DNA from: Thermoplasmata archaeon
GTDB lineage: Archaea > Thermoplasmatota > Thermoplasmata > Thermoplasmatales > Thermoplasmataceae
Length of the DNA: 45,156 nt
Assembly: GCA_021794355.1 (NCBI GenBank)
Contig: JAJYRA010000033.1
Span: 1-45,156 of the forward strand
Direction: 5' to 3'
The translations under genes and the position numbers were made by a program. Positions 18,696 to 22,076 of this stretch are shown here, piece by piece; position 1 is the stretch's first letter, and every line of letters starts with the position of its first letter. The notes beneath the pieces were generated by a model that was not told where the DNA came from, searched no databases, and saw only the letters and a list, made by a program, of their open reading frames with translations.

Positions 18696-19390
18696 ATGTA
18701 CGGAACTGGAGGGGAAGACATGAGAAGGAAGATTAAGATAATCTTGGCAATTCTTACAGTTGCGATATTGCTCAGTGTTGCAGTTCCACTGGTCTACGAA
18801 AAGGATCAGTCCATAATGCCACTCATTCTGAATCATCAATATATTTCAATGCGTGATCATAACCTGACTACCCTGGACAAAGAATGTTTCCGTGGCTCTC
18901 CCCTTCAGGCATACTATCCCGTCAATGTGACTTATAACGGCTTTGGCACCTTCCAGATAGCAATGACGATGAATGCCATTGGGGCTCATCCAAACTGTTC
19001 CTTCAATGCCTCTCATTTTAGCAAATATCCTTATTTTTTTAATAATTACTACTCAACCATGATTATGCTTCTAAAAGCGAATTATACGGGCCTGGGATCA
19101 ATTGGAGTCAATTTCGTGAGCTCATCTTTGTACAACAGTAATGCAAGGCAATATGCTAATACAGATCAAAATTCGGTTCTCAGGGAGGGGTCATATTACA
19201 AGATTGGTCCTTATGTATCTCTTTATCCAAATTTCCAAGGTTCCAACAATTTAGGCATATTTGACGGAACATATTATATATCTTTGACAGTAGCCTTATA
19301 CCGAACTGTGCTTGGAATTCCATTTCATCTTGGGGATATCACACTTAAAGCGCCAATGTTTACTGTTGTAAATGCCACATCCACCACGGG
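18452..19390 (+). repeat. Tandem duplication, unit 1
   Basis: About 940 bp covering the last ~240 bp of the 618-aa gene and all of the protein A gene. It is repeated as unit 2 at about 19458-20395, the boundary being read where the similarity starts (tgctttccctcccatttgt versus tgctttccatcccgtttgt). Confidence 0.7.
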
Positions 19391-19394
19391 GTGA
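18720..19394 (+). CDS. Secreted/anchored protein A of a duplicated pair (224 aa)
   Basis: I use ATG 18720, preceded by the Shine-Dalgarno ggaggggaag (18708-18717), rather than ATG 18696. The product starts MRRKIKIILAILTVAILLSV, a signal or anchor helix, and then an extracellular domain rich in Tyr, Asn and Ser with several N-glycosylation sequons. No family recognised. It has a close paralogue at 19727-20395: shared blocks include VYEKDQSIMPLI/IYEKDQSIIPLI, HQYISMRDHNLT, AYYPVNVTYNGFGTFQIAMT and an identical C-terminal region. It follows the 618-aa gene closely, so the two products may act together on the cell surface. Confidence 0.75.
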   Translation: MRRKIKIILAILTVAILLSVAVPLVYEKDQSIMPLILNHQYISMRDHNLTTLDKECFRGSPLQAYYPVNVTYNGFGTFQIAMTMNAIGAHPNCSFNASHFSKYPYFFNNYYSTMIMLLKANYTGLGSIGVNFVSSSLYNSNARQYANTDQNSVLREGSYYKIGPYVSLYPNFQGSNNLGIFDGTYYISLTVALYRTVLGIPFHLGDITLKAPMFTVVNATSTTG

Positions 19395-19726: not shown

Positions 19727-20395
19727 ATGAAAAGAAAAACGAAGATTGTGTTTACGATTCTTGTGGTATTGATATTGCTAAGTGTTGCAGTTCCACTGAT
19801 TTACGAAAAGGATCAATCCATCATTCCTCTCATTCCGAACCACCAATATATTTCCATGCGTGATCATAACCTAACCAATCTGGACAAAGAGGGTTTCTAT
19901 GCTCCCCTTCAGGCATACTATCCCGTTAATGTGACTTATAACGGCTTTGGCACATTTCAGATAGCAATGACGGGGCGCCCCATTGGGCTCTATCCAAACG
20001 AAACCTTCAACGCTTCTTATTTTAACAATTCTCCTTATATTATTGATTTTGACTACTCAACTATAATTATGCTTCTGAAAGCGAATTATACGGGGGTGGG
20101 ATCAATTGGATTGAGTTTCGTGAGTTCATCTTTATACAACAGTAAATCAGGTCAATATACTAATACAGATCAAAACTTCGTTCTTAGGGAAGGGTCATAT
20201 CACAAAATTGGTCCTTATGTATCACTTTGGCCGAATTTCCAGGGTTCCCACAATATAGGTATATTTAACGGGACATATTATATGTCTTTGACAGTAGCCT
20301 TATACCGAACTGTGCTTGGAATTCCATTTCATCTTGGGGATATCACACTTAAAGCGCCAATGTTTACTGTTGTAAATGCTACATCAACTGTATGA
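19727..20395 (+). CDS. Secreted/anchored protein B, paralogue of the 18720-19394 gene (222 aa)
   Basis: ATG 19727 follows a good Shine-Dalgarno, ggagggataaa. The product begins MKRKTKIVFTILVVLILLSV (basic residues plus a signal helix) and then runs in parallel with protein A to the end. The middle has diverged (for example around GRPIGLYPNETFNASYF), whereas the last roughly 95 nt (20285-20379) are identical to 19281-19375, which suggests either a recent event or gene conversion. Sequons suggest glycosylation outside the cell. Function unknown. It ends 204 bp before the transposase relic at 20601. Confidence 0.75.
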   Translation: MKRKTKIVFTILVVLILLSVAVPLIYEKDQSIIPLIPNHQYISMRDHNLTNLDKEGFYAPLQAYYPVNVTYNGFGTFQIAMTGRPIGLYPNETFNASYFNNSPYIIDFDYSTIIMLLKANYTGVGSIGLSFVSSSLYNSKSGQYTNTDQNFVLREGSYHKIGPYVSLWPNFQGSHNIGIFNGTYYMSLTVALYRTVLGIPFHLGDITLKAPMFTVVNATSTV

Positions 20396-20600
20396 CAATG
20401 CCCCTTTTTGCCTTCTCAATATGATCCTCTTGTTAAACCAGAGCAAAAGAGATATATTTAACGGAAATTCCACTTCACTTTTCCGTTCTGAAGCAAAATT
20501 CCAACAGAAATATCCCTAATCAGCCTATTTAATTTCCCCATAAATATCTGGTTGATTAAAAAAATGTTTTTTGGTTAATGTGTGAAAATACGTAAGCTCT

Positions 20601-20993
20601 ATGCACATAGATGTGATCAAATCGACGCAGAAGGGGAAGACATATTTCAGTTACCTTCTCATGTAATCCTACCATGACAACGGAAAGGTGAAGCAGTGAA
20701 TCATTGGAAACATTTGCTGCTGTTCTCCTGAAGAGGTAAATGCCTTGAGGTTTACACTGAAACAAAAGAACAACCTCGCAGGCATTCTCAATGATGGGAA
20801 TGGGATATAGTAATCACAAGGATTTTCGGTTGACACTTCGTCCTCATTGCACAGAACAGCACATGATCTTGGTATCATAAAAGTGTTGGGCCACACTGAA
20901 GAGGCAAAACATGAATTATTGATGATCCTAGCAAGACTTATTGGATCAGGATCAAATGGCAAGCACTGTTTGAGGCGGAAGGGGGTGGAGTAA
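20601..20993 (+). pseudogene. IS1634-family transposase, N-terminal remnant
   Basis: Frame from ATG 20601: MHIDVIKSTQKGKTYFSYLL, then M-stop, SYHDNGKVKQ-stop, IIGNICCCSPEEVNALRFTL. The layout 'MxIxVIKS..KGKTYxxYLLxESY..NGKVKQRxIxNLG' is the recognisable start of IS1634-type transposases. Two codons that should be in 'LLRESY' and 'KQRII' are now stops. After a shift the frame continues TAHDLGIIKVLGHTEEAKHE and MILARLIGSGSN before ending at 20991. Only about the first quarter of a transposase is left and it is heavily decayed. The intron-like RNA begins a few bases later. Confidence 0.65.
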
Positions 20994-21456
20994 TTCAGTC
21001 CTTTACCGTGCAGCCTGTAACCCTATAAGACCAGCTGGAGGTAAACCAACCTATGGAAAAACCTGAAAACATAGTAGCAAATCGGATGCACCGGTTGAGT
21101 AATCACCAATGTGAAAGCTCCGAGGATAAAGCATCTGCCGGCGCAAGCTGGGGGGCTGTACAGAGATGCGAGCAAGCAACCTGGCCATAGCATTAAGTCA
21201 ATTCTGCAGCATCGTTACTGGATCCACAAGAATACGGTTCAAGTGGGGAATTAAGTGCGACGAGCCTGTGGTAAAGAGGCGAAGTCAATACATTCAGGCA
21301 AGACGGGTGTGTGCACCTGAATGGCACTTCGGTGTAGGGGAAGTAGCAAGGTTGCAAGGTCTTATGGGTAAAGCAGGGAAGGACCTTGAACAGAGAAGGT
21401 TGATGGGGGAATGCGTAATGCCAACCTCATTGATCATTCAAGGCCTGGCGGATGTG

Positions 21457-21492
21457 GTAGTAGTAGCAGTGAAGCCTCTGATAATAAGGAGG
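21457..21492 (+). repeat. 36-nt direct repeat, copy 1 (inside the intron-like RNA)
   Basis: Identical over 36 nt to 21529-21564; the two copies are separated by exactly 36 nt. The sequence begins gtagtagtagcagtgaag and ends ataataaggagg. It corresponds to the domain-III-like block. Confidence 0.85.
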
Positions 21493-21528
21493 GGTATTTT
21501 CTCTTAGGGTCTCCTCGGCTTCTTTCCA

Positions 21529-21564
21529 GTAGTAGTAGCAGTGAAGCCTCTGATAATAAGGAGG
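21529..21564 (+). repeat. 36-nt direct repeat, copy 2
   Basis: The second identical copy, followed by aagagcaaagg, which continues the domain-III-like pattern; copy 1 lacks that continuation. Copy 2 is therefore probably the ancestral one. Confidence 0.85.
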
Positions 21565-21835
21565 AAGAGCAAAGGACCACTGGATACGATGGCTCCAAGG
21601 AGGATAGAGCACAGGATACTACCCGAAAGGGTTATTTGGTCCCGCATCAAGGGGTTCTGAGTTAATCTCGACATGCATGTGCATCTAGAATTTGAAGAGC
21701 GAAGTGTATCCTAAACCGAAAGGGAAGGGGATACATGATCAATAAGGCGTCGTATTTGAAGCCGGATGCTCGAAATGAGCCAGTCCGGAATTTTAGAGGG
21801 GGAGCTGGAAACGGATCTTCGGAGAGCTGTCTCAA

Positions 21836-22076
21836 CGGGATGTTGAGATACAGTCAAGCTGTCTGAAGGAACTGCGCTTGCTCTCTACTCGAGACTGTAG
21901 ACAGGGATGCACACAAGGGGAACACTGATATCCCCACAGAGAGGCAACTCCATGAACGATGGAGACCTTAGAACCTTCAATCCGTTAGGATGGAGAGTAT
22001 GTCAGAAGGGTCCAAACAATAAGGGGGCAGACCAATTCTTTGGGAGATTATTTAATTCACCAATACATATAGACTC
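21836..22076. other. Intergenic DNA after the intron-like element, no gene seen
   Basis: About 240 bp with small hairpins (for example ctccatgaacgatggag near 21949-21965) but no convincing ORF. The true intron 3' end could lie in here. ttatttaat near 22048-22056 may be the TATA-like box for the ATG at 22077, about 25 nt away. Confidence 0.35.

Follow-up and report, generated by a model that had tools for sequence, protein, structure and literature searches.

An ORF-less group II intron family with an altered domain V in an order of Thermoplasmata

We found that the window, the whole stretch of 45,156 nucleotides analysed here, carries a full-length group II intron without a reverse transcriptase (RT) at 21008-21893, a conclusion that covers its identity, its ends, the conservation of its structure and its EBS/IBS match. 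An earlier sequence-only reading had proposed an ORF-less archaeal group II intron at this place, and this proposal is strongly upheld by a D1-D4 covariance match, by covariation across domains I-VI, by pairing between EBS and IBS, and by an exact empty site. The intron belongs to a family, termed family C, and we consider it very probable that the whole is best explained by an ORF-less family that is mobilised in trans, with the window copy having decayed.

A group II intron without a reverse transcriptase

Rfam covariance models, which the sequence-only reading had named as a check, gave a divided answer. RF02003 (group-II-D1D4-4) matches 21032-21195 with 53.7 bits against a gathering score of 49 (Rfam), the sole Rfam match at gathering across the 45-kb window, while RF00029, which covers domains V and VI (DV and DVI), stayed below its threshold (24.0 bits against a cut-off of 40; E 0.0053 in a targeted 181-nt search) and gave no match at E ≤ 10 when 3.5 kb were searched. 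The intron is 886 nt long, including a private 72-nt insertion. Its 5' end, GTGCAGCC at 21008, is exact, since homology starts there in three copies of the same genome (contigs C26, C24 and C70) and in many copies elsewhere, in agreement with the GUGC-type 5' end proposed earlier. On the other hand, the 3' end had been placed at 21835, about 58 nt short; DVI runs about 95 nt beyond DV, and the consensus 3' end, CTCTACTCGAC, lies at 21883-21893. Most members have the form GUGC...GAC, i.e., GU...AY ends, and the window copy ends AG, with G as its last base.

We aligned 11 full-length copies of 805-886 nt each from 10 genomes, none of which carries an RT, and folded the alignment with RNAalifold. 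All six domains, whose folding the sequence-only reading had named as a check, were recovered and covary (Table 1): 199 pairs were predicted in domains I-VI, and 136 of them show at least one double-sided compensatory change in the 11-copy alignment. The gtagtag, cagtgaagc and agcaaagg series, described earlier as a domain-III-like block, falls within domain III. The absence of an RT also stood, as tblastn with two group II RTs revealed no RT similarity in the 11 family members (best E 0.09); an RT remnant in domain IV, considered as a candidate, was ruled out when the same search found nothing there.

Table 1. Positions of the intron, its parts and its immediate flanks in the window
Feature	Position	Strand	Basis
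3' fragment (half of DV and most of DVI) of X, a different RT-encoding group II intron type; 5' exon and target of the intron	20959-21007	+	90% identical to C89:1340-1388
IBS2 (TTCAG)	20994-20998	+	pairs with EBS2
IBS1 (CTTTACC)	21001-21007	+	7/7 Watson-Crick with EBS1
ORF-less group II intron, full length	21008-21893	+	ends from 11 full-length copies and the seamless empty site of C26
Domain I	21014-21377	+	RNAalifold on 11-copy alignment; RF02003 at 21032-21195
EBS2 (CTGGA)	21218-21222	+	pairing scan
EBS1 (GGTAAAG), in a hairpin loop	21270-21276	+	RNAalifold and pairing scan
Domain II	21381-21446	+	RNAalifold
Domain III, enlarged by insertion	21454-21580	+	RNAalifold
72-nt insertion private to the window copy: 36-nt filler, then second copy of 21457-21492	21493-21564	+	copy alignment
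Domain IV, structured	21582-21757	+	RNAalifold; no RT remnant by tblastn
Domain V; AGC triad 21760-21762, CA bulge 21781-21782, AA facing triad G 21789-21790	21758-21794	+	covarying hairpin
Domain VI with conserved internal insert, whole domain about 95 nt	21796-21890	+	RNAalifold, copy comparison
3' flank: fragment of an IS200/IS605 tnpB-like 3' end, with the sequence that follows it	21896-22007	+	about 90% identity to parts of C3 and C11

Pairing with flanking DNA was assessed by an unbiased scan in which each alignment column was scored against each offset of the copy's own 5' flank. The maximum fell at offset 0 and column 288 (EBS1-IBS1), with a second cluster at offset 9 and column 230 (EBS2-IBS2), which is the topology of group II introns. 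When exon labels were permuted 1000 times, the maximum was never reached and the second value was reached twice. EBS1 forms at least 6 of its 7 pairs in 9 of the 11 copies, if two copies are given a one-base shift in the alignment. The EBS/IBS pairing looked for on the basis of the sequence-only reading was found in the window copy, where EBS1 (7/7) and EBS2 (5/5, one pair being G-U) both match the 5' flank, and so this copy sits at its own target. Elsewhere, one family C copy (L031, G062:C60) has a 5' flank similar to an IS630-type transposase, while the sequence on its 3' side is similar to a group II RT C-terminus. The EBS1 of this copy fits the present 5' flank in only 3 of 7 positions, which suggests rearrangement.

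Domains V and VI and the distribution of family C

The DV-like hairpin with an AGC triad and a bulge had been correctly located (Table 1). The mismatch between the triad G and an A had been taken as a sign that this copy lost activity; however, two bases face the triad G in all 14 members compared (AA in 12, AG in one and GA in one), instead of the single U that is usual at that position in eight RT-encoding DV sequences inspected, and the mismatch is thus a family trait. Alignment of DV-DVI to RF00029 shows the same extra base facing the triad G. Since the triad G faces two bases, DV scores 24 bits against 40, which would hide family C from surveys keyed on DV, of which there are examples (PMC4424553).

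Across DV and the base of DVI, 90.5% of cells pair; shuffling lowers this share to 80.4%, and sliding lowers it to 52% or less. Of the 25 pairs, 13 show changes in both partners. The bulged DV register pairs and covaries, with A-U replaced by G-C in three copies. An unbulged register for the lower stem was ruled out, as two of its positions never pair in the 14 copies. DVI holds a conserved insert of about 90 nt, which is common to the family and to the RT-encoding Y intron of the same genome. The predicted branch point, A21887, is bulged between conserved pairs as the seventh base from the 3' end and is invariant in the 14 copies.

By DNA search, family C was detected in 15 of 151 genomes, comprising the genome of the window and its relatives. 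With a covariance model of the family's DV-DVI (R1), matches of at least 66 bits were obtained in 12 genomes among the 117 of the order; when 400 genomes of the class were sampled, no match of that strength fell outside the order. Across the class, R1 also gave weaker matches (up to 49 bits), which adjoin RT genes at the loci inspected, i.e., they are RT-encoding introns. Within the genomes searched, family C is restricted to one order of Thermoplasmata. Four contigs with the family 3'-end pattern are MAGs of Thermoplasmata archaeon, which fits the earlier description as Thermoplasmatales-like. Many truncated copies exist as well. A literature search, conducted largely among papers outside subscription, returned no description of this family.

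Only in the window copy does domain III contain two exact 36-nt copies flanking a unique 36-nt filler (21457-21564); even with up to 3 mismatches allowed, the filler was found at no second place in the genome, and an assembly fault is one possible origin of the arrangement. This private insertion, the altered last base and the flanks of element debris led us to judge the window copy inactive, and it is probably a relic without an intact host gene to splice. The earlier suggestion that the intron may have lost activity can therefore be kept on the strength of these signs, though not on that of the mismatch.

Insertion sites and a proposed helper in trans

Directly 5' of the window copy lie 49 bases with 90% identity to C89:1340-1388. 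In that contig of the same genome, this segment is the DV-DVI tail that follows a 434-aa group II RT (RF00029, 43.2 bits), which places the target inside the 3' end of another intron, of type X. The last bases of X are not clearly recovered downstream, and the nesting is incomplete. The C26 copy interrupts domain I of an X-like intron, i.e., it forms a twintron. When its flanks are joined, they align gap-free over the junction with an intron of another genome that is not interrupted (G019, 69%), and this empty site gives exact intron ends. At L075:2800-2990 (G019:C1), the end of an X-type intron abuts a DVI tail that resembles family C and is without its 5' part; either intron may have entered the other.

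Other copies are found in transposon genes, and several of the host transposases are broken. Joining the exons in G050 yields a single reading frame, which matches HTH_Tnp_1 (E 2.4e-9). In G031, G067 and G058, tnpB-like genes carry the insertion close to their 3' end; in G031, PF07282 matches the part upstream of it, and an IS200 TnpA (PF01797) precedes the insertion in G067. The C3 and C11 stretches that match the 3' flank of the window copy contain a frame reading ..DANASFNIALRPEFVEGMDQLRVDRDARKG.., and we call this flank tnpB-like by resemblance, with no family match. Upstream, a degenerate repeat occupies 20456-20958, and the genome holds two relatives of it (C1 and C28, 71-74%). A dead IS1634-type transposase had been reported next to the intron; this was not confirmed, as a stitched reading of the repeat matched no Pfam or NCBIfam transposase and gave a far sub-threshold match to an arCOG04150 KH protein (E 0.0018). 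Two closely similar secreted-protein genes, an apparent duplication, lie in tandem further upstream (18696-19394 and 19727-20395; 232 and 222 aa).

Covariation throughout domains I-VI, the retention of DV-DVI pairing in 90.5% of cells, where 13 pairs covary, and copy-specific EBS1 and EBS2 that fit different exons indicate that activity was needed after the family split, and the DV change, being common to all members, predates their spread. These points speak against the possibility that family C is a once RT-encoding family that lost its catalytic core, all copies being fossils spread by host DNA transposons. We regard this as improbable, even though DV is sub-threshold for RF00029, truncated copies are many, several hosts are broken transposases and some carrier genomes have no detectable group II RT.

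The search for an RT elsewhere in the genome, another check named in the sequence-only reading, uncovered three group II RT stretches outside the intron. The genome also holds several copies of Y, whose 5' ends are seen at the ends of contigs C15, C17 and C24 and whose 3' ends are seen at C74 and C3. In relatives, Y is of the D1D4-4 type (74 bits) and has a canonical DV; R1 scores its DV-DVI at 41-47 bits and recognises its DVI insert. The profile matches of family C to both Y and X are short, and its nucleotide kinship to Y is weak. In one genome, two near-identical RT-encoding Y introns (L062 and L074, G042:C37) lie head to tail, the second starting at the 3' end of the first (..CTACTCTAC).

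We propose that family C, whose members keep domains I-VI, chooses its DNA targets through EBS1 and EBS2, inserting precisely and often into other mobile elements such as transposase genes and RT-encoding group II introns. Its members would have lost the intron-encoded protein, and splicing and mobility would most likely occur in trans, by the RT of a related resident intron. Y, with the same D1D4-4 type and DVI insert, is the first candidate and a plausible helper; alternatively, the X protein may act. The window copy would have reached its place by retrohoming, with the DVI tail of a truncated X-type intron as its target, and would have decayed later.

An RT-encoding relative, which usually though not necessarily accompanies an ORF-less group II intron, is present in the genome of the window and was not detected in every carrier genome. 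G067, which is 99% complete, has a full-length copy and no group II RT match, and so a helper is not always present. This copy would fit an autonomous family with maturase-free self-splicing and mobility through unrelated host RTs, which is a distinctly unlikely alternative given the RT-encoding introns in other carriers, including the genome of the window, the incompleteness of draft genomes and the precedent for action in trans (PMC2882425). Lastly, the lack of an RT and the weak DV would also suit some other structured non-coding RNA, regulatory or sRNA, that merely resembles a group II intron, a reading that we dismiss almost entirely, as it is already contradicted by the exon-pairing scan and the precise empty site and is opposed by RF02003 above gathering, six domains, the EBS1/EBS2 topology, GU..AC ends and the bulged A that stands seventh from the 3' end.

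The group II catalytic triad corresponds to the core of spliceosomal U6. The naturally occurring, covarying variants that family C offers around the triad make the tolerance of the active site testable, and the family shows how an element made of RNA only, which is probably a parasite of RT-encoding introns, persists across archaeal genera. On the reading as an ORF-less family mobilised in trans, surveys that start from DV or RT would miss such lineages and ORF-less introns would be under-counted; with this implication, the reading as a whole is offered tentatively.

Comparison with known systems

In 2003, Dai and Zimmerly reportedly described group II introns of Methanosarcina acetivorans that are ORF-less and nested. 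These resemble family C in being archaeal, lacking an RT and being inserted into other group II introns. In contrast, family C occurs in a different archaeal order, its DV is changed at the bases that face the triad, its DVI is enlarged, and its targets also include tnpB-like and HTH_Tnp_1 transposase genes. The nesting of Methanosarcina group II introns has been described (PMC2882425). Group II introns of Thermoplasmatota were already counted in a survey (PMC8919778) and several RT-encoding ones exist in the genome of the window, so that the view of the sequence-only reading that an intron in this lineage would be notable is not supported as far as its presence in itself is concerned.

In Thermosynechococcus elongatus, ORF-less TeI3 introns are mobilised in trans by a driver IEP, as demonstrated experimentally, and share with family C the loss of the ORF, diversified EBS and insertion into IS elements and related introns (PMC2882425). 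However, TeI3 comprises relatives in one genome with discernible ORF remnants (PMC2882425), whereas family C is divergent over several genera, has no detected ORF remnant and would rely on a putative helper. The Y introns (L061 and L080; C15, C17, C24 and C74 in the genome of the window) share the D1D4-4 type and a related DVI insert, and their 3' end, ..CTACTCTAC, is similar to ..CTACTCGAC of family C; unlike family C, Y has a canonical DV (AGC facing GUU) and a 451-residue RT frame in domain IV. Finally, family C shares the overall DV/DVI layout of RF00029 (Intron_gpII) but differs from it in the extra base facing the triad G, a shorter upper stem with a GAAAN loop and an enlarged DVI.
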